DNA of 64,000 bases from Alloprevotella sp. (GTDB taxonomy: Bacteria; Bacteroidota; Bacteroidia; Bacteroidales; Bacteroidaceae): NCBI GenBank assembly GCA_017478625.1, contig JAFVDF010000016.1, positions 124,001 to 188,000 on the forward strand, read 5' to 3'. The first letter of the stretch is position 1; each line of letters opens with the position of its first letter. Below, piece after piece: positions 3,001 through 57,294 of this stretch. The notes beneath the pieces are model-generated. The model was not told where the DNA came from and searched no databases. It saw only the letters and a program-made list of their open reading frames with translations. A program made the translations under genes and the position numbers.

Positions 3001-4650
3001 TCTCCATATCTCTGTACCAATGTGGTAATACCTAGTGGGGCCAATTCATACCCCTCTCTTGACGAAACAGTAACTAAGGGCGATTTGTTTGGCTGTAATA
3101 ACATCCGCTTTGAGAGCGGTGCAGCCGTGGAAAAAGTCTTTAAGTTGAACTATGCCAAGGCTTGGGTAGATCTGACGCTTGAACCTAATCGCTACTATAT
3201 GCTTTCCGCACCGTTGAAGTCTATGTACACAGGTGATATGTATATTCCGGTCAGCGTAGGCGAACTTGGAACATTTGAAGAACTTACGGATCTTAATTAT
3301 ACGCAGAACCGCTTTGCTCCGAGAGTATATCAGCGCTTGTGGGAAAAGTCTGCCCAGAATTTGCTTAGCGACGGTGGATACGGCAACGCAACCATACAGG
3401 AGACTCGCTGGTCTAAGCGTTTCAATGCATTGAAGTATGGATATTCTCAAGGCGAGGGCTTCTCTCTGTTCGTAGCACCAGAGGAAAACACCGCTTCCGA
3501 TTTTACATTCCGTTTCCCGAAGAACCAAACGGCTTATTACTACTTCAACGAAATGGATAAGTCCCAGTCTGAATTCAAGGAGATAGATCTGGACCGTACG
3601 GATAACCATCGTTTCATTTATGAGAGTGATGCCACCAAATCGTCCGATTATTCTTACACGGGACTGGAGGTTAATGAGCGCTCGTTGTATAATCGTATCA
3701 GCAGCATCAGCGTTACGGCCGAGGCACAGGCTAATACAACTACATTCCTTGTGGGCAATCCGTTCATGAGTCATATTAATGTAGAAAAGTTCTTGGCTGC
3801 CAATAGCGAAAAAGTGGCTGCAGTAAAAGTCTTCAATGGTAGTACGACCGCATCTGCCGTATCTATAGACGGGACAGGTACGCTTGTAACCAACGATGAT
3901 CTTACAACCATCCGACCGATGGAAGCTTTCTTTGTGACGGCTAAGGCCGAGGCTACACACCTTGATATCGTCTTTACAGAGGATATGTTTTATCGTGAAG
4001 TTGTCGATGAAGACATAGAAGCCGAGCGTGCTTCTGTTTCGGCCCTCAAGATTACAGCCGAATCTGACGGACTAAAAGCGTCGGCACTCCTTGTAGATGA
4101 CGAAGTAGAGGTTGCTGAGACGTTGTTTGATAATGAAGCCCTTCCCAAGCTGGCTGTTTTCACACTAGACAGTGATCGTGCACTCGATATCCGTAAGAAG
4201 GCCAGCAAGGAGATTATTCCTATTGGCGTATATGTGGACAATGCGAAAGAGGTGAAACTTTCTTTCAGTCTGCAAGGCGATATGGAGATGTCAGACTATG
4301 TACTTCTCGACCGAGAGACGGGTATAACCTACAACCTCAACGAAGATGTTCCTACATTTGAGGGACTTCAGACCACGATGAACCGATTCGCCCTCGTGCC
4401 AGGTGCTGTTACAGGCATCGATTTGGCCACCTTAGATGGTGTAAGCATAAGCGTGTCCAATGGCAAGGCTATTGTGAAGAGTGGCAAATCTGATCTGCGC
4501 AATGTAAGCGTATTTGCACCGAATGGTCGCCTTGTCAGCCAGGCTCATGGCACGGCACAAGTTACAGTTGATGTTACTTATGGCGTAAATCTCATAAGGG
4601 TAGAACGTGATGGTGCACCCACTCGCTCATACAAAGTGCTGGCCGATTAG
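1..4650 (+). CDS. Giant secreted surface protein with type IX-like C-terminal domain (5' end cut by window)
   Basis: The reading frame is open from the first base. The earliest Met (position 4) lies inside a hydrophobic signal-peptide core ending in a signal peptidase I-like AFA/E site, with no basic n-region, so the true start is outside the window. About 1,549 residues remain. Around residues 860-870 there is an Asp-rich DVDHDGVPDNRDE stretch like thrombospondin type 3 calcium loops. A W-rich segment follows near residue 980 (WRKN...WNVWENW), common in Bacteroidota surface proteins. The last ~70 residues (NVSVFAPNGRLV ... GVNLIRVERDG ... KVLA) resemble the Por/type IX secretion sorting domain that is removed at the cell surface. 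Inference: exported by the type IX system and surface-attached or released. Substrate or ligand unknown. A hairpin terminator follows the stop codon. Confidence 0.8.
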   Translation: MMLLAVALPSMAFAEDDLGNVDADESAAMAKSKEGAIVWQETDPTGANYLSARRALVGRNCAVNRVINVVAVGTGTSGLENLTNEDIDDYATFPQVISATVAVSPTVSVRDLKYYYAAGTTAGFCIVAGAGSVLNLDIVKTMHIWFYKDGVRVDDKTVREANGGAGVRIQLGNIPGSDQACANLTAVSDKEFDEVALVQGGAVDAAVGSVMMIKYAFVGDNHDVYMTTNGIKNYCEQKGLPTYAVACDAFMPSPLVGGIPIPMASSARARVIDDNLDNRIALVSAVQLASVAFKGRVRLEVTNDDKSLPELFEAGDQVGFKYDYGEALNLISAGTWVDIKLYDHNGDATETITIPANVLAVGIASGGDQTAYVTATKPFSGAEITFYNALGVLDVGSGYGVYYGFVRPKATIDHKCQINPSASTNICYTQTSLQLKHNPEVSVTWSIVKQPAENANQATVDPNTGFLSGMFADGEYIIRATSTDGNEQCYEDLVINHGDSEDFLEEPVEHVLYNADPTNPDYALSDNLHGETSANLLSISDMTNPDNILSAQFDDAASYTGGLQLLGSNGVIVGIKKLDASDPYIYDGSKASAKESVRVGFVIEMEQTALGLNLLNSFQIRCYDETGARTYSHIVEDAGVLGLNVVSSNEKNNKLRLSITVPKTKDGVPVKINEIQLWKIGAIDLKVSDIKIYYGFWDDPTDAKNNIIRDGATVVTYEGMGANVNLGTQVNVASVGGVTTNLSNIIDIDEELETYCLMQKTVESGSTTIIVKLGRVVDFRHQVGVVVNNDIVALNANLGSVLKIATYYNGTKTGEESTNWNVLGANVIQGSGKTVLLVQPTSDYDEIRIIAGEGLAANRTIKIYGILLRNDVDHDGVPDNRDESSCSDAINAITVSQVCEGGQLAITAEGTTATVYYISLPDQDLVVAEGEPGVKVTSNESGHIYETFTVNNAGRYTMYFYDGSGVFLTSQEYTVHPTNTTWRKNITSKDWNVWENWTEGSPYLCTNVVIPSGANSYPSLDETVTKGDLFGCNNIRFESGAAVEKVFKLNYAKAWVDLTLEPNRYYMLSAPLKSMYTGDMYIPVSVGELGTFEELTDLNYTQNRFAPRVYQRLWEKSAQNLLSDGGYGNATIQETRWSKRFNALKYGYSQGEGFSLFVAPEENTASDFTFRFPKNQTAYYYFNEMDKSQSEFKEIDLDRTDNHRFIYESDATKSSDYSYTGLEVNERSLYNRISSISVTAEAQANTTTFLVGNPFMSHINVEKFLAANSEKVAAVKVFNGSTTASAVSIDGTGTLVTNDDLTTIRPMEAFFVTAKAEATHLDIVFTEDMFYREVVDEDIEAERASVSALKITAESDGLKASALLVDDEVEVAETLFDNEALPKLAVFTLDSDRALDIRKKASKEIIPIGVYVDNAKEVKLSFSLQGDMEMSDYVLLDRETGITYNLNEDVPTFEGLQTTMNRFALVPGAVTGIDLATLDGVSISVSNGKAIVKSGKSDLRNVSVFAPNGRLVSQAHGTAQVTVDVTYGVNLIRVERDGAPTRSYKVLAD

Positions 4651-7596: not shown

Positions 7597-8343
7597 ATGA
7601 AGGCGCTGATTTTTGCGGCAGGCAAAGGCACGCGCCTGAAGCCACTTACCGACACACGGCCCAAAGCTCTGGTGGAGGTGGATGGTCGCACCCTTTTAGA
7701 ATGGGCTATCGTGAGATTGCGCAATAGTGGCGCCGACGAATTAGTGTGTAATGTCCACCATTTTGGAGAGCAGATTATCCAGTTTCTCCATACCCACGAT
7801 TTTAAAGTGCCCGTAGGAATTTCAGACGAGCGTCTTATGTTGCTGGATACGGGTGGAGGGCTCCGACAGGCGGCTTCGCTCTTTTCGCATCTGGATGAGC
7901 CCTTGTTGATACATAATGTGGACATCCTGAGCAATGCTCGGCTGGATGCGTTCTATAAGGCTCCGCTCCAAGGGGCTGTTGCTTCCTTGTTGGTAAGCCG
8001 TCGCGAGGCTTCGCGCTATCTTTATTTCGACGAGCAGATGCGCCTGCGTGCATGGCAGAATGCGCGTACCGGCGAGGTGCGTAGTCCCCTGGCGTCAGTA
8101 GATTTGTCGGCGCTTCAGCGCTATGCTTTTAGTGGCATACATCTTTATTCTCATCGTCATCTTGACCTGCTCGACAGTCAGCCCGAGGCATTCCCCATCA
8201 TGGACTTTTATCTGAAAATATGTGCCGATTATGATGTGCGCGGATTTGTGCAGGACGATTTGCGCCTACTTGATGTCGGAAAGCCTGAGACCCTTGAGCA
8301 AGCCCCTCAGTTTATAAGCCAATTGGCAGAATACAGGCTCTGA
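7597..8343 (+). CDS. Sugar-1-phosphate nucleotidyltransferase (MurU/GlmU-N-like)
   Basis: A 248-residue protein opening with the NTP-transferase signature FAAGKGTRLKPLTDTRPKAL: the glycine-rich nucleotide loop (G8-x-G-T-R) and a catalytic Lys. Later motifs are NVHHFGEQI, the metal/sugar-binding HNVDILSN, and FSGIHLYS. It has the length of single-domain enzymes such as MurU (MurNAc-1-P uridylyltransferase) or related mannose/glucose-1-P nucleotidyltransferases, without the left-handed helix domain of GlmU. Bacteroidales often pair such a gene with a sugar kinase. Here the next gene is a PfkB kinase, but a 215-bp gap with a repeat array separates them. The exact sugar is not decided. Confidence 0.8.
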   Translation: MKALIFAAGKGTRLKPLTDTRPKALVEVDGRTLLEWAIVRLRNSGADELVCNVHHFGEQIIQFLHTHDFKVPVGISDERLMLLDTGGGLRQAASLFSHLDEPLLIHNVDILSNARLDAFYKAPLQGAVASLLVSRREASRYLYFDEQMRLRAWQNARTGEVRSPLASVDLSALQRYAFSGIHLYSHRHLDLLDSQPEAFPIMDFYLKICADYDVRGFVQDDLRLLDVGKPETLEQAPQFISQLAEYRL

Positions 8344-8412: not shown

Positions 8413-8511
8413 AGTTCACACTGTGAACTCTGCGTTTCACACTGTGAAATTTGAATTTCACAGTGTGAAATAGAAAATCCGACTATACAATTTTAGCCTT
8501 CTCTTATGGCG
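8413..8511. repeat. 21-bp-phased palindrome array (three TTTCACA-S-TGTGAAA units plus flankers)
   Basis: Three near-perfect odd palindromes are centred at 8421, 8442 and 8463, exactly 21 bp apart: AGTTCACA-C-TGTGAACT, TTTCACA-C-TGTGAAA and TTTCACA-G-TGTGAAA. The spacers are CTCTGCG-like and TTTGAA. The phase continues weakly at 8484 (GAC-T-ATAC) and more clearly at 8505 (CTCT-T-ATGGCG). It fills the gap between the nucleotidyltransferase and the PfkB kinase. The same unit type recurs near 22.3, 31.3 and 47.9 kb. Confidence 0.9.
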
Positions 8512-8558: not shown

Positions 8559-9440
8559 ATGCAATCCTTGTTCAATCCAATCGTAGGTTTAGGCGAGGTT
8601 CTGTGGGACTTATTGTCTACGGGTCCCCGATTAGGTGGTGCGCCCGCCAACTTTGCCTTTCACGCATCGCAATTAGGCACACCGGCAGTTGTCGTATCGG
8701 CTGTAGGGAAGGACGAGTTGGCAGAAAAGACCCGCCAGCAGTTGGAGGTCAGTGGCTTAGGCTTTCTTTTCAGTACCAATAGTCATCCTACGGGTGAAGT
8801 AGCGGTGTCTGTAGATGACACGGGCTCTGCCACGTACGACATACGCCCCGATGTGGCTTGGGACTATATGGAGCTTTCCAAGGATATGCGTCAGTTAGCC
8901 AAGTCTGCCCGGACCGTGTGCTTCGGCACTTTATCTCAGCGTAGTCCGGTCTCACGCGCCGCGGTAAGGGAGTTCCTGGAAAATACCTCCGATGCCTGCC
9001 TGCGCATCTGCGACATTAATTTGCGTCCGCCCCACTATTCGGCTGAAGTCATAGAGGAGTCTATCCGTTTGTGCAATATACTGAAAGTAAGCTCCGACGA
9101 ACAGCGCGAAATCAATGTGCTGTTAGGGCTCAACGCAGAGTCGCCCATCGCCACAAGCCACCTGTTGCTCCAGCGGTATGGGTTGCACATACTTATCGTT
9201 ACCTGTGGGGAGCACGGAAGCCATGTTTACACGCCGGAGAACCACTATTTTATTCCTGCAAAGGCCGTCACACTTGCTGACACCGTGGGGGCTGGCGATT
9301 CCTTTACCGGAGCGTTTTGCGCAGCCCTGTTGCGTGGCGACAGCATAAGGCAGGCGCATCAGCTGGCCGTGGAAGTTGCAGCTCATGTATGTGCTCATTA
9401 CGGGGCAATGGTGGCGTGGCCTAAAAGATTGACCTTATGA
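8559..9440 (+). CDS. PfkB-family carbohydrate kinase (fructokinase-like)
   Basis: A 293-residue ribokinase-fold kinase. It opens with IVGLGEVLWDLL and the PfkB signature 1 region LGGAPANFAFHASQLG. Signature 2 is DTVGAGDSFTGAF near residue 245, where the GAGD Asp is the catalytic base. The GEVLWD and GGAPANFA pattern is typical of fructokinases (ScrK group), so fructose is the likeliest substrate. The stop codon overlaps the next ORF (ATGA), which implies translational coupling. The start used is the ATG at 8559; a nearby ATG at 8554 is out of frame. Confidence 0.82.
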   Translation: MQSLFNPIVGLGEVLWDLLSTGPRLGGAPANFAFHASQLGTPAVVVSAVGKDELAEKTRQQLEVSGLGFLFSTNSHPTGEVAVSVDDTGSATYDIRPDVAWDYMELSKDMRQLAKSARTVCFGTLSQRSPVSRAAVREFLENTSDACLRICDINLRPPHYSAEVIEESIRLCNILKVSSDEQREINVLLGLNAESPIATSHLLLQRYGLHILIVTCGEHGSHVYTPENHYFIPAKAVTLADTVGAGDSFTGAFCAALLRGDSIRQAHQLAVEVAAHVCAHYGAMVAWPKRLTL

Positions 9441-20779: not shown

Positions 20780-21985
20780 ATGGAAAAAATCAAAATGTCC
20801 ACGCCTATCGTGGAAATGGACGGCGATGAAATGACCCGAATCCTTTGGAAAATGATTAAAGACGAACTTATTCTGCCGTTCGTTGACCTTAAAACCGAAT
20901 ACTACGACCTTGGTCTGGAACACCGTGATGCTACTGCCGACCAGGTAACCCGTGATGCAGCCGAAGCAACTAAGCGTCTGGGCGTAGCGGTTAAGTGCGC
21001 AACGATCACGCCTAATAAGCAGCGTATGTCCGAATATAATCTGCATGAAATGTGGAAGAGTCCTAACGGAACAATCCGTTCTATTCTTGACGGCACCGTA
21101 TTTCGTGCTCCAATAACTATTCCGACGATTAAGCCGGTGGTTAAGAATTGGGAAAAGCCCATTACGATCGCCCGTCACGCTTATGGCGACGTTTACAAGA
21201 GCGTAGAAATCCGCGTAGAAGAAGCTGGAACCGCCAAATTAGTATTTGAGGGTGAGAGCGGAAAACGCGAAGAAGTAGAAATACATCGCTTCAAGGGTCC
21301 TGGCGTATTACAGGGTATGCACAATGTAGATAAGTCGATAAAATCTTTCGCCCACTCATGCTTCAAATACGCTATTGATACGAAGCAGGACGTATGGTTC
21401 TCGACCAAGGACACTATCTCAAAGAAATACGATGGCCAGTTCCGCGCAATCTTTGACGAGGTATTCGCTGAATATAAGGAGGAATTTGAGCGTCTGGGTA
21501 TTACTTATTTCTATACCCTTATTGACGACGCTGTTGCTCGCGTGATACGAAGCAAGGGTGGCTATATTTGGGCCTGCAAGAACTATGACGGTGACGTTAT
21601 GTCCGACATGGTAAGCACGGCCTTTGGCTCGTTGGCCATGATGACTAGTGTATTGGTAAGTCCGGAGGGGAATTATGAATACGAAGCAGCCCACGGAACT
21701 GTCACAAGGCACTACTACAAATATCTCGCCGGCGAAGAGACCAGTACGAACCCGATGGCAACCATTTTCGCCTGGACGGGAGCTTTCCGCAAGCGCGGAG
21801 AAAAAGACAACCTGCCCGAATTGCAGCGTTTTGCCGATTTGTTGGAGCAGGCCTGCCTTGATACGCTTAACGAGGGTATCGCAACGAAGGATCTCGTAGG
21901 CCTGATGGAAGGCATTACGCCTCAACAGGTTAATTCGCTGGACTTCATTCGTGCTATCCGTACGCGTCTGGAAAAGAAGCTTTAG
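20780..21985 (+). CDS. icd: NADP-dependent isocitrate dehydrogenase, eukaryotic-like type
   Basis: 401 residues. The start KMSTPIVEMDGDEMTRILW, the substrate-site NGTIRSILDGTVFR, the metal site LIDDAVARVIRSKGGYIWACKNYDGDVMSD, and GTVTRHYYKY (NADP pocket) place it in the homodimeric eukaryotic-like subfamily. It converts isocitrate to 2-oxoglutarate, or the reverse with CO2 and NADPH. It is downstream of aconitase and is closed by a terminator at 22028. Confidence 0.95.
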   Translation: MEKIKMSTPIVEMDGDEMTRILWKMIKDELILPFVDLKTEYYDLGLEHRDATADQVTRDAAEATKRLGVAVKCATITPNKQRMSEYNLHEMWKSPNGTIRSILDGTVFRAPITIPTIKPVVKNWEKPITIARHAYGDVYKSVEIRVEEAGTAKLVFEGESGKREEVEIHRFKGPGVLQGMHNVDKSIKSFAHSCFKYAIDTKQDVWFSTKDTISKKYDGQFRAIFDEVFAEYKEEFERLGITYFYTLIDDAVARVIRSKGGYIWACKNYDGDVMSDMVSTAFGSLAMMTSVLVSPEGNYEYEAAHGTVTRHYYKYLAGEETSTNPMATIFAWTGAFRKRGEKDNLPELQRFADLLEQACLDTLNEGIATKDLVGLMEGITPQQVNSLDFIRAIRTRLEKKL

Positions 21986-22185: not shown

Positions 22186-22325
22186 GCAGATATTGCAATC
22201 GTTACCCGGTATTATGTAGTAGGGAGAGAGTATAATACCCTTTGGAAAAAGGCTTATGGCGTGGTCGATTTCACAGTGTGAACTCTGCGTTTCACAGTGT
22301 GAAATTTGAATTTCACACTGTGAAA
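22186..22325. repeat. 21-bp-phased palindrome array, mixed unit types
   Basis: Dyad centres are at 22192 (CAGAT-A-TTGC), 22213 (GGTAT-T-ATGTA), 22234 (GTAT-A-ATACC), 22255 (GGCT-T-ATGGC), 22276 (TTTCACA-G-TGTGAAC), 22297 (TTTCACA-G-TGTGAAA) and 22318 (TTTCACA-C-TGTGAAA). All are exactly 21 bp apart. The array lies between the convergent icd and rfbB genes, so a promoter role for either is unlikely here. The remainder of the 350-bp gap (22057-22185) shows no gene. Confidence 0.9.
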
Positions 22326-22335
22326 TGACTTGCTT

Positions 22336-23460
22336 CTACCTTTTGCCGTACATTTTCTCGTAGTAATTTTGATATTCCCCCGTAGTTACATTGTCGAGCC
22401 ATTCTTGGTTGTCGAGATACCAGCGCACGGTGCGTTCTATTCCTTCTTCAAATTGCAAAGAAGGTTCCCAGCCCAGTTCACGTTGAAGTTTGCGCGAGTC
22501 GATGGCATAGCGGGCGTCGTGACCAAGCCTGTCGGTTACATAGGTTATAAGGTTGAGGTCTTCGCCTTCCTTACGGCCTAGCAATCTGTCCACAGTCTTA
22601 ATGAGAATACGGACTATATCTATGTTCTTCCATTCGTTGAATCCGCCGATGTTATAAGTCTCCGCAATCTTTCCCTTATGGAAGATGAGATCTATAGCGC
22701 GTGCGTGGTCTTCTACATAGAGCCAATCGCGCACGTTCTCGCCCTTTCCGTAAACTGGCAGAGGCTTGCGGTGGCGTATGTTATTTATGAAGAGCGGAAT
22801 GAGCTTCTCGGGAAATTGGTAGGGCCCGTAGTTGTTCGAGCAGTTGGTCACGATGGTCGGCAGGCCGTAGGTATCGTGAAATGCGCGTACGAAATGGTCG
22901 CTCGAAGCCTTGCTGGCACTGTAGGGGGAATGGGGAGCATATTTGGAAGTCTCTACGAAAAAGTCGTCGCCATATACTTCGTGTGCGCTAAACTCTGCCG
23001 CCTTTCCCTCCGGGCAGGTTAAGGCCAAGGCGCCATATACTTCGTCTGTGGAGATATGGTAGAATCGTTTGCCCTCATATTTCTCTGGCAGACTTTCCCA
23101 GTAGGTACGAGCGGCTTGAAGGAGGCTGAGCGTACCAAGGACATTGGTACGAGCAAACGCAAATGGGTCGCTGATGGATCGGTCCACGTGACTTTCAGCT
23201 GCCAGGTGGATAATGCCGTCCACGTGCTTTGTGCGGAGCAAGGCTAAGATGGCATCAAAGTCGCAGATATCCAGATGTGCAAATTCGTAGTTCGGCTTGT
23301 CGGCTACATCAGCCAGATTGGCCAAGTTGCCTGCGTAGGTAAGCGCATCCAGGCAGATGATGCGATACTCTGGGTACTTATTGACAAATAACCTTACGAC
23401 GTGGTTGCCTATAAACCCCGCGCCGCCAGTAATAACTATGGTACGCTTATATGTGTCCAT
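22336..23460 (-). CDS. rfbB: dTDP-glucose 4,6-dehydratase
   Basis: A 374-residue short-chain dehydrogenase. The NAD-binding loop is TGGAGFIGNHV near the N-terminus, followed by HLAAESHVDRSI, ISTDEVYGAL and the catalytic YSASKA (Tyr-x-x-x-Lys). NCSNNYGPYQFPEKLIP is characteristic of RfbB/RmlB. It forms dTDP-4-keto-6-deoxyglucose for rhamnose and related surface sugars. The other rml genes are not in the window. It is last in a minus-strand surface-polysaccharide block. Confidence 0.95.
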   Translation of the reverse strand: MDTYKRTIVITGGAGFIGNHVVRLFVNKYPEYRIICLDALTYAGNLANLADVADKPNYEFAHLDICDFDAILALLRTKHVDGIIHLAAESHVDRSISDPFAFARTNVLGTLSLLQAARTYWESLPEKYEGKRFYHISTDEVYGALALTCPEGKAAEFSAHEVYGDDFFVETSKYAPHSPYSASKASSDHFVRAFHDTYGLPTIVTNCSNNYGPYQFPEKLIPLFINNIRHRKPLPVYGKGENVRDWLYVEDHARAIDLIFHKGKIAETYNIGGFNEWKNIDIVRILIKTVDRLLGRKEGEDLNLITYVTDRLGHDARYAIDSRKLQRELGWEPSLQFEEGIERTVRWYLDNQEWLDNVTTGEYQNYYEKMYGKR

Positions 23461-30166: not shown

Positions 30167-30610
30167 ATGATAGCAACTATCCTTATCTATCTTCTTGTGG
30201 CTCTCTTGGCCCTTGTATTTATCTGTGGCTATGTCCGCTATTATTCTGCTCCCAAACCTATAGAGCCGGTAGTCCGTGATGCCGAAGCATGGCAGGCTAA
30301 ACGTGAAGCATTGGAGGAGCAATATGGTTTATTGACAAGAGAAATCATCTTCACCCATTATCAGGACGACGTGTCGGATAATGCCTTTGTGTTCGACGAC
30401 AGCGAAGTGCTTCTCTTAATGGGCCGTCCTATCGCATACGATAAGATAGAACGTGCCACGCTGGAGTTTGCAGGTGAATATGTGCTTAAAATCTGGGTGG
30501 AGGGTATAGAAGGTCATTATCTTACCCAAAGCACCGATAACGGCTCTGCGGCCAACGAACTGAAAGCAGAGTTGGATAGGATTATTGCTCTTCACACATC
30601 TGCAGAATAG
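30167..30610 (+). CDS. Small membrane-anchored protein of unknown function
   Basis: 147 residues. Residues 2-25 are one strongly hydrophobic helix (IATILIYLLVALLALVFICGYV), followed by a soluble, acidic domain with alternating hydrophobic strands. There is no signal-peptide cleavage site, so it is probably anchored in the inner membrane. It follows trkA by 46 bp in the same direction. Its last 29 bp overlap the 3' end of the convergent AlkD-like gene. I do not recognise a family. Confidence 0.6.
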   Translation: MIATILIYLLVALLALVFICGYVRYYSAPKPIEPVVRDAEAWQAKREALEEQYGLLTREIIFTHYQDDVSDNAFVFDDSEVLLLMGRPIAYDKIERATLEFAGEYVLKIWVEGIEGHYLTQSTDNGSAANELKAELDRIIALHTSAE

Positions 30611-31199
30611 ACGCAGCCATCCGCTCTTGCGGCAGACCTTGATCTGCAAAACGCTCTACGGCACGGCACGCCGCGTGTCGCAGGAATAGAGGGCCCTCTT
30701 GTATCTGCGCGCGGGCCTGGTCCAGAAATTCGTGGGCGTCGCGCGTAGTTAGCGTGAAGCCTTCTGTCAGCAGGCGTGTCAGTATCTGAAGAGCCGTGTA
30801 ACGGAGTAAATCCTCTTCAGCAGCCAGCCATCGGAAGGCCACATTGGAGGCGTAGTTCATCCGGCGTAGCAAATAGAACACAAGAACGTCGGCTTCTTCG
30901 GGAAAACGGAGTTGTAAGACCCATTCTTCGGCCAAATCTTCTGCAAAAGCCTCTTCCGGCATCAGCATAGGAGCCAATAGCCTACACTCTCGGATGTCTT
31001 CTTTCCAAAGAAGCCCGGCCAGCCCTGCATCAGGAGTAAATGTTGTCGCAAATGCCTGCAAGCGGGGGAGCTCTACACCGTAGTTGATGCGATAGATAAG
31101 CCCTTTTTCACGCATAGACCTACTGGCTACTCCGTTCATCATAGCGTGGAGAGACTGCTTTATGGTGCGCAGATTTTCAATGGCGGAAGTCTTGGACAT
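30582..31199 (-). CDS. DNA alkylation repair (AlkD/HEAT-like) protein
   Basis: A 205-residue, all-helical protein. The size, the helical repeats and the sequence around GLAGLLWKEDIRECRLLAPML (an AlkD-like W/K-E-RE-R-A motif) suggest the ALK/HEAT-repeat family that includes 3-methyladenine glycosylase AlkD. In its favour, many Bacteroidales carry such a ~210-residue protein. I cannot see all the catalytic aromatic and acidic residues, so it may be a related HEAT protein without glycosylase activity. The gene is monocistronic, with a palindrome array directly upstream. Confidence 0.55.
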   Translation of the reverse strand: MSKTSAIENLRTIKQSLHAMMNGVASRSMREKGLIYRINYGVELPRLQAFATTFTPDAGLAGLLWKEDIRECRLLAPMLMPEEAFAEDLAEEWVLQLRFPEEADVLVFYLLRRMNYASNVAFRWLAAEEDLLRYTALQILTRLLTEGFTLTTRDAHEFLDQARAQIQEGPLFLRHAACRAVERFADQGLPQERMAASILQMCEEQ

Positions 31200-31237: not shown

Positions 31238-31441
31238 ATACAATAATTCGGTCTCACCGTGCAATTATTGTATCTTTTTGTGGCATAATACCCTTTTTCG
31301 TTTCACACTGTGAAATTTCAATTTCACAGTGTGAACTCTGAATTTCACAGTGTGAAATCTGGCAGGCCCTTATTGGGCAAATGAGGCGTATAATGGAGTG
31401 AATACATACAATATACGTCCTGACGGATGGCCTTATGGCAG
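31238..31441. repeat. 21-bp-phased palindrome array, ten positions
   Basis: Centres are at 31245 (CAAT-A-ATTCG), 31266 (CAAT-T-ATTG), 31287 (GGCAT-A-ATACC), 31308 (TTTCACA-C-TGTGAAA), 31329 (TTTCACA-G-TGTGAAC), 31350 (TTTCACA-G-TGTGAAA), 31371 (GCCCT-T-ATTGGGC), 31392 (GCGTAT-A-ATGG), 31413 (weak) and 31434 (GGCCT-T-ATGGC). The spacing is exactly 21 bp throughout. It fills most of the 330-bp gap between the AlkD-like gene and the hsp20 terminator. The three TTTCACA units sit in the middle with the other type on both sides. Confidence 0.88.
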
Positions 31442-31529: not shown

Positions 31530-31961
31530 TTACTTCACCTCAATGTGCTGCATCAGTTGCTGTTTCTGCTCTGGTGTCTGCTTGGGAAGTTCAACGAGAA
31601 GTACACCGTTTTCCACTTTCGCGCTGATCTCTTTGCGATCTACATCATCTGGCAGAATAAGGGCCTGCTGGAATTTCGTATAGTTGAATTCTCTGCGCAG
31701 ATAGCGACGTTCTTTCTGTTCGTTGGAAGTTTCTCCCTTGCGCTCCATGCTTATGACGAGATTGTTGTCTTCATCTATGTGGATATGGAAGTTTTCTTTT
31801 GACATGCCCGGAGCAGCTACTTCTACTTCGTAGGCCTTTTCCGTTTCGGCTACGTTGATGGCTGGAGCCGTTGCATTAGTGCGTTTCATCCAGTCGTAGT
31901 CAAAAAAGTCATCAAAAATACTTGGAATCCAGTTCTGATTGTAACGTTTAGTAGGTAACAT
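31530..31961 (-). CDS. Hsp20/alpha-crystallin small heat-shock protein
   Basis: 143 residues. The alpha-crystallin domain spans ~35-130: NVAETEKAYEVEVAAPGMSKENFHIHID, then SMERKGE and FNYTKFQQALILPDDVD, and the hallmark AKVENGVLLVELPK (A-x-x-x-n-G-v-L). It is an ATP-independent holdase that prevents protein aggregation. It is monocistronic, with its own terminator, a strong Shine-Dalgarno, and a possible sigma-54-like promoter upstream. Confidence 0.95.
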   Translation of the reverse strand: MLPTKRYNQNWIPSIFDDFFDYDWMKRTNATAPAINVAETEKAYEVEVAAPGMSKENFHIHIDEDNNLVISMERKGETSNEQKERRYLRREFNYTKFQQALILPDDVDRKEISAKVENGVLLVELPKQTPEQKQQLMQHIEVK

Positions 31962-45127: not shown

Positions 45128-47728
45128 CTATTCGTTTCGGAATGTCAGTTTGCCATCGGCTACTCCAACGAAAATAGTTTTCTCTTTGTCTATTGTTCCA
45201 GCCAGCAGGTCTTTTGACAGATTGTTGAGTAGCATCCTTTGCAGTGCGCGCTTGATGGGGCGAGCTCCAAACTCGGCGTCAAATCCTTCTTGCGCTATCA
45301 AGTGGATAGCTTCGTCGTCCACGTGGAGCCGTACGTCTTGTGCTTCGAGCCGTTGGATGATAGTCTGTGTCTGCAGCCTTACGATGTCGGCAATTTGTTC
45401 CTCTGTAAGCGGTTCGAACATTATGATATCATCTACGCGGTTTAGGAATTCTGGCCGTATGGTCTGTTTAAGCATATCTAACACGCCTGTGCGCGCCTCG
45501 TCAATAGCCTTTTCGCGCTGGGCCATAGTGGCACCCTCCAATGCGCCTAGTTTTTCTTGTATGAAGCGACTTCCCAGATTCGACGTCATTATGATAATCG
45601 TATTTTTGAAGTTCACCACGCGTCCTTTGTTATCTGTAAGTCGTCCGTCGTCTAGGACTTGGAGCAATATGTTAAAGACGTCGGGGTGTGCCTTCTCTAT
45701 TTCGTCGAATAAGACCACGCTGTATGGTTTCCGCCTTACGGCCTCGGTCAGTTGCCCGCCCTCTTCGTAGCCTACATAGCCCGGAGGTGCACCGACAAGC
45801 CTTGAAACACTGAATTTCTCCTGATATTCAGACATATCAATACGGGTCATCAGATTCTCGTCATTAAAGAGATATTCTGCAAGTGCCTTGGCTAGTTCGG
45901 TTTTGCCCACACCAGTGGTTCCCAGAAATATGAACGATCCAATCGGTCGCTTGGGATCTTGCAATCCGGCCCTGCTACGGCGCACTGCATCACTGACGGC
46001 GGCAATGGCCTCGCCTTGTCCTACGACGCGCTTGTGTAGTTCGTCTTCGAGATGTAGGAGCTTTTCGCGCTCACTCTGTAGCATTCGGTTTACGGGAATA
46101 CCCGTCCAGCGCGAAACCACATCCGCTATGTCATCGGGCGTAACCTCTTCGCGCACAAGTGCATCGTTTCCCTGCTGGTCTCGGAGTTTTTTCTCCACAC
46201 TGTTTATCTCGTCTTCCAATGCGCGTAGTTTTCCGTAGCGTATCTCAGCCACCTTGCCGTAGTCTCCCTCTCTCTCAGCGCGTTCGGCCTCGAAGCGGAG
46301 TTGTTCCATAAGTTTACGGTTCTCTTGAATCTTGGCAATCAGCTGTCGCTCACCTTCCCATTTTGCACGGAAAGCACTTTCGCGCTCCTGCAATTCGGCA
46401 ATTTCTTTGCCCAATTGGGCTAGTTTAGGCTCGTCGTGTTCTCTCTTGATGGCCTCGCGTTCTATTTCCAGCTGGCGTAACCGGCGAGAAATCTCGTCTA
46501 ATTCTTCGGGCTGAGAGTCGTGTTCCATGCGTAATTTTGCCGCGGCTTCATCCATAAGGTCTATAGCCTTGTCTGGCAGAAAACGGTCGGATATGTAGCG
46601 GTGGGAGAGTTGTGCGGCGGCTATAAGGGCATCGTCTTCGATACGTACCTTATGGTGATTCTCATAACGCTCCTTCAGACCACGTAGAATACTTATTGTG
46701 TCTTCTACACTCGGTTCGTCCACCATTACAGTCTGGAAGCGGCGCTCAAGTGCCTTGTCCTTTTCAAAATACTTTTGGTATTCTTCCAGCGTAGTAGCGC
46801 CGATGGTTCTTATCTCCCCGCGTGAGAGAGCCGGCTTAAGTATGTTGGCTGCATCCATAGCGCCTTCACTTTTACCCGCACCCACCAGCGTATGAATCTC
46901 ATCAATGAAGAGGATTATATTACCCTCCGATTGCGTTACCTCATTCACTACGCTTTTAAGTCGTTCCTCAAACTCGCCCTTATATTTTGCACCGGCCAGC
47001 AGTGCCCCCATATCGAGCGAGAAGAGTTGCTTGTCGCGCAGATTGTCTGGGACGTCGCCACGTACTATACGCTGGGCTATTCCTTCCACTATGGCCGTCT
47101 TACCGGTGCCCGGCTCACCAATCAGGATGGGGTTGTTTTTCGTGCGACGCGATAGGATTTGAAGTACACGGCGTATCTCGTCGTCGCGACCAATCACTGG
47201 GTCGAGGTGTCCGCTCTGCGCTTCATCAACCAGGTTGCGCGCATATTTTTGCAGAGCCTGCCATGTGTCTTCGCTAGACGGACTGTCTGTGGTCTTTCCA
47301 CCTCGGAGCTGGGTAATGGCCTGACTTACGATTTCACGGCTTAGACCTGCGTCACGAAGAATGTGGCCTGCAGTACCATTGGAACTGGTAAGTGCCAGGA
47401 GCAACGTTTCAATACCGACGAAAGTGTCACCTTGTTTGCGGGCCAGTTCTTGCGCCTGAAGCAACACTTGGTTGGCCTCTTTGTCTAGATAAGGTTCACT
47501 GCCGGTCACACGGGGTAGCCGGCCGATTTCATTATGTACAGCCTGTACCAAGGGTTGCAAGGCTACACCAGCCTTATTGAACAGAAATTTTATCACATCT
47601 TCGCCTACGGCAAGTACGCCGGCGAGCAGATGCAAGTCTGTGATAGCTTGTTGTCCGCCTGTAGAAGCTTTGTCTATGGCGGTCTGAATGCTCTCTTGAG
47701 CCTTGATGGTAAAATTATCTAACTTCAT
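45128..47728 (-). CDS. clpB: ATP-dependent disaggregase ClpB
   Basis: 866 residues, the normal ClpB length: a Clp-N double repeat at the N-terminus, AAA1 with Walker A GEPGTGKT and [13 protein letters not shown], then the ~120-residue coiled-coil middle domain ([20 protein letters not shown] ... KLRDQQGN). AAA2 follows with Walker A GTTGVGKT and [16 protein letters not shown]. It solubilises aggregated proteins with DnaK. It is monocistronic, with a 21-bp palindrome array directly upstream. Confidence 0.98.
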
Positions 47729-47779
47729 ATTTTTCTACGTTTGGTTTCTGTCTTTCTATTACTCAAACTTCTTGCCAAA

Positions 47780-47960
47780 CGCCATTATGCGGTCGTTTTG
47801 TCAGATTATGGGCCTAAATTGCAGGTTTACAGGCTGACAAAATGGCATAATTCCCGTTGTGTGTAGCATAATGCCATTTTCTATTTCACAGTGTGAAATA
47901 TGAAGTTCACACTGTGAAATGTGGAGTTCACACTGTGAACTGAAACAGCGGATTATATAA
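47780..47960. repeat. 21-bp-phased palindrome array, nine positions with both unit types
   Basis: Centres are at 47786 (GCCAT-T-ATGC), 47807 (AGAT-T-ATGGG), 47828 (GGTT-T-ACAGG, weak), 47849 (GGCAT-A-ATTCC), 47870 (AGCAT-A-ATGCC), 47891 (TTTCACA-G-TGTGAAA), 47912 (GTTCACA-C-TGTGAAA), 47933 (GTTCACA-C-TGTGAAC) and 47954 (GGAT-T-ATAT). All are 21 bp apart. It fills the gap between trpB (3' end) and clpB (5' end), both minus strand. No other gene is visible in this 301-bp gap. Confidence 0.92.
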
Positions 47961-48029
47961 CAGACAGACCGCACGGACTTGCTGGCAAATCGGTGCGGTC
48001 TGTAGTAGTGACAGTATAGACTTATTTTG

Positions 48030-49391
48030 TTAAATCTTTGGTACGCTGGCCAATGTCTTGGCAATGTCGGCGTCGGAGATGTCGTAATTCTGCAAGTCGC
48101 CATTCAAGAATTGGTCGTAGGCAGTCATGTCGATGAGTCCGTGGCCTGAAAGGTTGAAGAGGATGGTCTTCTGCTCGCCACTCTCCTTGCAACGCAGCGC
48201 TTCGCGTATGGTAGCGGCGATGGCGTGGCTACTTTCGGGAGCAGGAATGATGCCTTCGGTCTGTGCAAAGAGCAAACCGGCCTGGAAACTTTCCAGCTGC
48301 GGAATATCAACGGCCTTAATATACTGGTCCTTTAAGAGCTGGCTGACAATGGCTCCCGCACCGTGGTAGCGAAGCCCGCCGGCGTGGATGTTGGCCGGTC
48401 TGAAATCGTGGCCGAGCGTGAACATGGGAATCAGTGGCGTGTAACCGCTTGCGTCGCCGAAGTCATATTCAAATTTGCCTCTTGTAAGTTTTGGGCAACT
48501 ACTGGGCTCTGCAGTTATGAACGTGGTCTGCTTTCCGTCCAGTAAGTTATGGCGCAGGAACGGGAAGGCCAGACCGCCGAAGTTACTTCCGCCACCGAAG
48601 CAGGCTATGACAATGTCAGGATACTCACCTGCCTGCTCCATCTGCTTCTCTGCTTCCAGTCCGATAACGGTCTGGTGGAGCGATACATGGTTCAGTACGG
48701 AGCCGAGCGTGTATTTACAGTTGGGTGTGCTTATGGCAAGTTCTATTGCTTCGCTGATGGCTGTTCCCAGCGAGCCGGGATTGGTCGGGTCGGCCGTGAT
48801 AAAATCTTTTCCTGCGCGTGTGGACATTGAAGGAGAGCCTTCTACCGTTGCTCCAAATGTGCGCATCATTATGCTCCGATAGGGTTTCTGTTGCAGACTA
48901 ATCTTTACTTGATAGACCGCAGCTTCCAAACCGAAAGTGCGAGCCGCATAACTCAGCGCGGCACCCCACTGGCCTGCGCCCGTCTCGGTAGTAACATTCG
49001 TGATGCCCTGTTCTTTGAGGTAATAGCATTGTGCGAGGGCGGAATTGATCTTGTGGGAGCCAAGCGGATTGACGCTCTCGTTCTTGAAATAAATATGAGC
49101 GGGTGTATCCAGTGCTTTCTCCAGGTCGTAGGCACGGACGAGTGGCGTGGCGCGATAGGACTTGTATTTTTCCAGAACGGGTTCCGGAATGTCTATAAAG
49201 GAGTGTGTTTGGTCAAGTTCCTGCCGTGCACATTCTTCTGCGAAGAGCGGAAAGAAATCTTCAACTTTCACAGGCTCGTGAGTGGCCGGGTTGAGTGGCG
49301 GAAGGGGCTTATTGACCATGTCTGCCTGGATGTTGTACCACTGTGTAGGGATTTCGCTCTCTTGGAGCAAGAAACGCTTTTGTTTAGTCAT
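48030..49391 (-). CDS. trpB: Tryptophan synthase beta chain, TrpB2 type
   Basis: A 453-residue TrpB2-family enzyme with the long N-terminal segment (QWYNIQADM ... PPLNPAT). The PLP lysine is K114 in NPLGSHKINSALA, TETGAGQWG forms the active-site loop, and FGGGSNFGG binds the PLP phosphate. It condenses indole and serine to tryptophan. No trpA or other trp gene is adjacent, so it may salvage indole. It is controlled by a tryptophan attenuator directly upstream. Confidence 0.95.
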   Translation of the reverse strand: MTKQKRFLLQESEIPTQWYNIQADMVNKPLPPLNPATHEPVKVEDFFPLFAEECARQELDQTHSFIDIPEPVLEKYKSYRATPLVRAYDLEKALDTPAHIYFKNESVNPLGSHKINSALAQCYYLKEQGITNVTTETGAGQWGAALSYAARTFGLEAAVYQVKISLQQKPYRSIMMRTFGATVEGSPSMSTRAGKDFITADPTNPGSLGTAISEAIELAISTPNCKYTLGSVLNHVSLHQTVIGLEAEKQMEQAGEYPDIVIACFGGGSNFGGLAFPFLRHNLLDGKQTTFITAEPSSCPKLTRGKFEYDFGDASGYTPLIPMFTLGHDFRPANIHAGGLRYHGAGAIVSQLLKDQYIKAVDIPQLESFQAGLLFAQTEGIIPAPESSHAIAATIREALRCKESGEQKTILFNLSGHGLIDMTAYDQFLNGDLQNYDISDADIAKTLASVPKI

Positions 49392-57247: not shown

Positions 57248-57294
57248 TTCTAATTCTTGTTCCAATTCTTGTTCTAATTCTTGTTTTAATTCTA
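57248..57294. repeat. 12-bp tandem repeat, about four copies
   Basis: TTCTAATTCTTG, TTCCAATTCTTG, TTCTAATTCTTG and a partial TTTTAATTCTA follow each other without gaps. The repeat could vary in copy number by slippage. It lies in the AT-rich leader region before the first insert gene. Confidence 0.85.

Follow-up and report, generated by a model that had tools for sequence, protein, structure and literature searches.

The window, the whole stretch of 64,000 nucleotides analysed here, belongs to an Alloprevotella assembly (G000; 1.26 Mb, 59% complete, 18 contigs) and carries a phased array of palindromes in an intergenic stretch between two genes that we take, by the look of their sequences, to be clpB-like and trpB-like:

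45128..47728, minus strand: clpB-like gene, 866 aa, left neighbour of the array
47783..47789, no strand: outer unit CATTATG, centre 47786
47805..47809, no strand: outer unit, ATTAT core, centre 47807
47847..47851, no strand: outer unit, ATAAT core, centre 47849
47866..47874, no strand: outer unit GCATAATGC, centre 47870, in the 21-bp register of the triplet
47885..47939, no strand: strong triplet, TTCACAGTGTGAA / TTCACACTGTGAA / TTCACACTGTGAA, centres 47891, 47912 and 47933, 8-bp linkers
47952..47956, no strand: outer unit, ATTAT core, on the opposite side of the triplet, centre 47954
48030..49391, minus strand: trpB-like gene, 453 aa, right neighbour of the array

The triplet (47885–47939) lies 156 bp from the ATG of the clpB-like gene. 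Over 7 bp, the palindromes centred at 47891 and 47933 pair at 7/7 positions and that at 47912 at 6/7 (TTTCACASTGTGAAA type), which bears out the three TTTCACA-S-TGTGAAA units in one phase described in an earlier sequence-only reading of this DNA. That reading had counted nine palindromic centres at 21-bp spacing; eight of them hold, with the outer ones individually weak (in the ATWAT-core units, four pairs precede the first mismatch at 47870, three at 47786 and two each at 47849, 47807 and 47954), but register position 47828 pairs at the innermost position only and is not a palindrome. The number of in-phase dyads was never reached in 1000 base shuffles of positions 47729–48029: the best 21-bp phase holds six dyads with at least 4/6 pairs (at most five in shuffles) and four with at least 5/6 pairs (at most three). 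An inverted repeat read by eye (ACAGACCGCAC...GTGCGGTCTGT), possibly a terminator, occupies window 47964–48002, on the side of the array that faces the trpB-like gene. A 12-bp tandem repeat, TTCTAATTCTTG, is present in 3.8 copies at window positions 57248–57293.

Forty triplets in one genome

The pattern recurs across G000, in which TTCACASTGTGAA forms 40 triplets with an exact 21-bp step, up to three mismatches being allowed (control, 0). Exact copies of the 13-mer number 104, with 99 inside triplets, two forming a pair (C10:190320) and one standing single (C5:119438). Four triplets (8415, 22270, 31302 and 47885) lie in the window and contain all twelve of its 13-mers with at most one mismatch; the three besides the one described above are:

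8415..8469, no strand: second triplet, between a nucleotidyltransferase-family gene (7597-8340, plus strand) and a pfkB kinase-family gene (8559-9437, plus strand)
22270..22324, convergent: third triplet, between an ORF (20780-21982, plus strand) and a GDP-mannose dehydratase-family gene (22339-23460, minus strand)
31302..31356, no strand: fourth triplet, between a DNA-alkylation-repair-family gene (30585-31199, minus strand) and an Hsp20 gene (31533-31961, minus strand)

All 40 triplets fall in gaps between long ORFs and look intergenic; seven are overlapped by mechanical frames of 92–150 aa, which we treated as spurious. When superimposed, with both strands used, the 40 arrays yield a near-invariant core, TTCACA-S-TGTGAA, with either C or G at its centre, linkers that tend towards A-T-N-Y-R-N-A-T, and a flanking-unit consensus of.a.AT.gCATAATGCCATTTT at centre −42. 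Unit by unit, the information per position amounts to 0.39, 0.22, 0.17, 0.10, 0.08, 0.05 and 0.05 bits, with about 0.04 from −189 on, and the in-register signal of the outer units fades across approximately six units. The GCATWATGC-like flanking dyads noticed at the single locus are real: at offsets 36–136 around the 40 triplets, ATNAT occurs in 62 of 400 positions of the 21-bp phase and in 0–6 of 360–400 positions of each of the 20 other phases. Strong units number three in each of the 40 arrays, besides the one pair and the one single, and none of the G000 triplets proved to have a fourth.

Several familiar identities were tried and set aside. A MITE-like repeat, one of the options first offered for this locus, finds no support in the G000 arrays, which are alike in cores and register only; judging by the flanks read and the 40-array profile, the signal is at background outside the 21-bp register. 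We rejected a simple minisatellite on account of the variable linkers and near-constant unit number (three in the 40 G000 arrays; in the relative G080, 23 of the 27 chains have four), the REP/BIME tag because GTAG/CGTC is absent from the 40-array profile, and a terminator or RNA hairpin because the arrays occur whether the neighbouring genes are divergent, convergent or tandem. A particular tie to clpB was likewise dropped (6.4 arrays per 100 kb near clpB in relatives, inside the genus range of 0 to 8.8), as was the idea that the motif came from phages (0 viral contigs with the exact pair). The other option first offered, an array bound by a dimeric protein of nucleoid, segregation or regulator type, gains support from the 40 recurrences, the conserved cores, the variable but constrained linkers and the exact register, and is further backed by a copy that precedes the ATG of one HU-family gene in G000 by 125–180 bp.

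A candidate HU-fold binder

The likely binder of the arrays, as predicted from sequence, is an HU-fold protein (PF18291) with a probable C-terminal winged helix. L055, L224 and L177 score 59.4, 65.2 and 78.1 bits against PF18291 (HU-HIG), all above the cut-off of 26.2, and L055 also exceeds the cut-off of 68.6 for TIGR01201 (HU_rel) with 75.6 (L224, 64.6; L177, 53.8). Winged-helix matches are weak (PF22168 at 7.8e-5 for L177, below cut-off; the ArsR-type chain 2kko at 0.0056 for the A1 profile), and ‘wHTH’ serves here as a working label for the C-terminal part of the candidate proteins. HU-HIG matches were present in 58/58 genus genomes searched. An HU-HIG gene adjoins the G000 array at C14:117072 (Pfam scan of flanking products), and in G080 one lies just 3′ of one of the genome's own arrays.

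By our count, 52 of the matches listed for the A1 model extend into its C-terminal part; 50 were read and classed as HU+wHTH, the others being the misfiled L287 and one unfetched, and 48 HU+wHTH genes with at least 200 bp upstream were testable. By TRF, an array of 20–23 bp period lies at most 350 bp upstream of 35/48 HU+wHTH genes compared with 1/34 HU-only genes, in a set that comprises every such match fetched with a model itself built mostly from array-bearing genes. The sole HU-only positive, L287, is an N-truncated HU+wHTH gene that the length rule sorted wrongly, and the 13/48 promoters negative by TRF include that of G000, whose triplet scores under the cut. Among sampled genes of six genomes, HU genes included, 37/808 have an upstream array (Fisher, 2e-31), as do 31/403 of those with at least 150 bp free upstream. 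Downstream arrays accompany 0/50 HU+wHTH genes compared with 7/35 HU-only genes. Eleven named Bacteroides, Parabacteroides and Phocaeicola records matched, and 8/10 homologs read in them are preceded by an array that TRF detects. The records carry a plasmid label and a non-mobilizable typing; we take them to be chromosomal pieces because the Parabacteroides record carries ribosomal protein operons. Viral homologs in the contigs examined match the HU part only. The HU-only rule is broken by two near-identical viral contigs (IMG/VR L299 and L300), in which a three-unit 21-bp array directly precedes the genes of HU-only relatives.

The triplet of the G000 HU+wHTH gene occupies −180 to −125 of its ATG, with TAACTTTG at −80. 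In Bacteroidetes, the −7 element is TAnnTTTG. Because 20/35 array-bearing HU+wHTH promoters have TANNTTTG at most 60 bp from the array (shuffles: mean 1.4, maximum 5; n = 300), the promoter array probably represses the gene.

The same layout with other sequences

The exact TTCACASTGTGAA pair occurs in none of 60 other genomes, 36 of which are of the same genus; among contigs of other genomes, it was met only in HAN085 (Prevotellaceae, one stretch) and in one Elusimicrobia assembly (two loci). The latter, Zod_Metabat.39, belongs to another phylum and has TTCACASTGTGAA at 21 bp at L024/L298 and L026, perhaps as sites of an unrelated regulator. HAN085 also contains a related array (L296 from 2229) of TTCCRCANTGTGGAA-like units at 21 bp, perhaps that of a paralog. 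Many species of the same genus carry different arrays with a period of 20–23 bp. Around clpB in 29 relatives, 10/12 intergenic tandem repeats (period 14–40) have this period, and its share in sampled stretches is 7/7 in G080, 3/3 in G019, 2/2 in G015, 3/5 in G061, 0/0 in G016 and 1/21 in G003, where ten of the 21 have a period of 18 bp; nine genomes of other families (307 kb) gave 2/6. A common layout with unrelated sequences in relatives suggests an undescribed, fast-changing form of chromosome organization or control.

Two further kinds of repeat were seen. G003, a single contig sampled to 14%, is almost without 21-bp arrays, and its samples (L098, L102, L105, L110 and others) hold many 9/18-bp repeats such as CGAAGTTAA, some of which recur at 65- or 73-bp steps. 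Long 23-bp arrays, distinct from the short fixed-size ones, occur at L092 (G027; 4155–4414) and at G080 C6:907026, with 11.6 and 14.8 near-identical copies, respectively.

G080 has its own version of the layout, with 268 GTTTG-N7-CAAAC pairs at 21 bp (control, 0). Of its 27 chains in 480 kb, 23 have exactly four units, one has six and one three, and the remaining two are chance-like pairs with mismatches; 17 gaps have a minimum of 4177 bp (P = 0.0003), and at least two further families have a 22-bp period. Family C of this genome looks like a dispersing cassette:

C6:213873, C6:647874, C5:279082 and C5:613203: family C arrays
C6:214142, C6:648141, C5:279345 and C5:612628: the corresponding HU-HIG genes
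C5:808158 and C5:813135: also family C

The cassette repeats 136-aa HU-HIG genes, six near-identical ones having been read, with a 22-bp dyad-symmetric array approximately 150 bp downstream (by eye; TRF finds 3/5 scored), and about ten more G080 rows are of similar length and score. Together with the turnover of motifs between species, this is the kind of evidence expected if the arrays were selfish REP/BIME- or MITE-like elements spreading with an HU-HIG helper. As a general explanation we consider this improbable, given that copies in G000 and in G080 family A are alike in cores and register, with linkers and flanks that vary by locus, and that the unit number is almost fixed at three or four; no transposase or target duplication happened to be noticed.

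Promoter and dispersed arrays share motifs in several species

We compared promoter arrays with dispersed arrays in 12 species. In G000, G080, G036, G012, G067, HAN085 and Phocaeicola massiliensis, an HU+wHTH promoter carries the motif of arrays at other places in its genome. Same-species scores were 53 (G036), 47 (G080), 38 (G012) and 32 (G067), and modest in G027 (15) and G034 (14), relative to an off-diagonal mean of 9.3 (0/20,000 permutations). Arrays scored at background against their own HU+wHTH promoters in G007, G019, G078, G014, G016 and G018, the genomes that lack an own-promoter match being incomplete and paralog-bearing; the G007 array matches a G019 promoter instead (47). Two paralogs in G080 match separate families, L177 family A (47) and L288 family B (34), and the L198 and L275 promoters of that genome match no array; G012 and G067 each have one matching promoter out of two (L233 and L240, respectively, fail). 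HAN085 has three four-unit TTCACANTGTGAA arrays, one of which is 5′ of its HU+wHTH gene. The wHTH sequences of HAN085 and G000 are 23% identical despite the common motif. The closest wHTH to that of G000 (L264; 49%) has a promoter motif with, by eye, the same TTTCA-N5-TGAAA half-sites.

Stretches of three P. massiliensis records contain 12 repeats of period 20–23, coding repeats included. One is the p49 promoter itself, three others match that promoter (53, 47 and 28) and the p12 promoter has two matches (30 and 29), so that 2/4 promoters tested match dispersed arrays. The two HU+wHTH genes concerned lie at OY726023.1:27875-28471, with arrays of its motif at OY726023.1:28550, 50950 and 78076 and OY726012.1:77632, and at OY725986.1:47840-48421, with arrays at OY726012.1:61726 and OY725983.1:106184; p38 and p9 match none, and six of the 12 repeats match none of the four promoters. 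A further 22-bp family, TACGCGTGACCCGATGCGTACG-like, is present at OY726023.1:113637 and OY725983.1:75411 and is matched by none of the four HU promoters tested. In 50-kb samples of P. distasonis and B. finegoldii, no array resembling their HU promoters was seen by eye.

A different protein could bind the dispersed arrays, the HU+wHTH gene being just one of its targets. G061 and G015 have 21-bp arrays and no full-length HU+wHTH gene among the matches to the A1 model, HAN085 and G000 have a common motif and dissimilar wHTH sequences, and the TetR-family regulator gene that adjoins the array at C14:137965 encodes a possible binder. However, the array stands upstream of HU+wHTH genes in many species and with many motifs (35/48, plus 8/10 of the Bacteroides, Parabacteroides and Phocaeicola homologs), and paralogs within one genome (G080 and P. 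massiliensis) match different array families; we give this explanation little credence.

Distribution along the chromosome

Genes neighbouring the 40 G000 triplets are convergent in 13 cases, divergent in 13 and tandem in 14. The smallest of 34 gaps between located sites (pair and single copy each treated as a site) is 7874 bp, although gap figures could shift with the two of the 104 exact 13-mers that are unlocated; from intergenic-like slots, about nine gaps below 7.8 kb would be expected, and there were never fewer than two in 3 × 5000 trials. On C14, inter-array gaps between 35 and 146 kb measure 7.9–17.4 kb. Triplet density differs between contigs (C14, 12 per 155 kb; C15, 6 per 403 kb, none beyond 264 kb). 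No bias of the arrays towards origin or terminus could be demonstrated from dnaA, skew, gene order or a dif candidate: dnaA had no match in G000, skew keeps a single sign on sampled stretches of most contigs and is near zero on C14 stretches, gene order relative to a sampled 400 kb of G003 is too scrambled (29 mapped genes), and a dif-like 22-mer beside C14:66004 was rejected, as it occurs in 2/58 genomes (at most three mismatches), one being G000 itself. An FtsK-family match lies at C10:19.3k.

The main rival to an architectural role, our best guess, is that HU+wHTH proteins are ordinary multi-operator repressors and the dispersed arrays the operators of a large regulon. In favour of operators, the HU+wHTH gene's own array often sits beside a −7-like element, some arrays lie upstream of genes such as clpB, and 12 of the 38 arrays in scored gaps (at least 80 bp) occupy divergent regions (10.4 expected by length). 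The same 38 gaps include 13 convergent regions, where 8.8 are expected, and are depleted in tandem ones (13 compared with 18.9). A Pfam scan of the 40 shortest of the 80 array-flanking products assigned families to 34 (mostly metabolism, translation and repair) and none to six, and revealed no common functional theme among these neighbours; moreover, the located sites are at least 7.9 kb apart, a spacing that no regulon would need. We regard a large regulon as unlikely, and favour architecture because of the regular spacing and the indifference to gene direction, considerations that tilt the balance and do not separate the two.

Proposed mechanism

From the arrays, their register, dispersal and unit number, the promoter arrays and the motif match in several species, we infer physical binding, winged-helix reading, repression, outward spreading and chromosome folding. 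We propose, with a probability of roughly 0.62, that the arrays are nucleation sites for a dedicated architectural dimer of HU fold with winged helices. In each HU-fold dimer (PF18291/TIGR01201), the C-terminal winged helices would read both half-sites of a palindrome, and adjacent dimers, two helical turns (21–22 bp) apart, would stack along a single DNA face. Direct reading would involve the three central units, after which the complex could grow outward over the weaker AT-centred units in register. HU and IHF dimers bend DNA through the minor groove and favour flexible steps; HU arms would account for the tolerated C/G swap and the Y-R step. The HU+wHTH gene is probably self-repressing through its own promoter array, and the dozens of dispersed arrays—several kb apart, intergenic and next to genes of any direction—would fold or anchor the chromosome. 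Paralogs would each have their own motif, and motifs would be replaced wholesale between species. More tentatively, and as a possibility short of even odds, the chromosomes of the order may be organized by fast-diversifying, sequence-specific HU-winged-helix proteins, each with its own genome-wide set of fixed-size phased arrays from which an extended nucleoprotein structure would start, the two turning over together between species. On this view, the weak outer units might even be remnants of an older motif displaced by newer core units.

Comparison with known systems

To our knowledge, chromosome organization in the Bacteroidota, a major gut group, is poorly known, and the titles and opening abstract lines of the open literature that we searched describe neither such arrays nor target arrays of HU-HIG proteins. 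The present analysis supplies a named protein family, likely sites in many species and a test organism, Phocaeicola massiliensis, and poses the general question of how dozens of sites and their protein switch specificity together. Should the architectural reading fail, a cis-regulatory code serving a large expansion of the HU family would remain.

In Enterobacteria, MatP, a ribbon-helix-helix protein, binds matS, a 13-bp palindrome (GTGACRNYGTCAC) confined to the terminus. The arrays resemble this system in having a palindromic 13-bp site in tens of chromosomal copies and, putatively, a dedicated protein with an architectural role, but comprise three or four phased sites, have an HU-type candidate, form several families per genome and carry a species-specific motif; matS itself was rejected, as the motif is TTCACASTGTGAA and the candidate is HU-type. 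Noc/NBS and ParB/parS likewise provide palindromic nucleation sites across the chromosome from which protein spreading is suggested; the arrays differ from them in being multi-unit, in their HU-type candidate and in a predicted extension in 21-bp steps with sequence preference. Dispersed palindromes and dimers on DNA are also found with SlmA, a TetR-type protein that, unlike the candidate here, has a different fold, binds single sites and keeps a motif conserved across genera. BIME/REP elements with RAYT transposases are intergenic, palindromic and regularly spaced; in contrast, the arrays have symmetric cores, no tag in the profile, a near-fixed unit number, an HU-type protein and a likeness limited to cores and register. 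The candidate binder is a member of the HU-HIG family (PF18291/TIGR01201), for which the Pfam description mentions fusions only. If site sets and reading domains do turn over together, the system would be a bacterial parallel to centromere DNA and its fast-evolving proteins.
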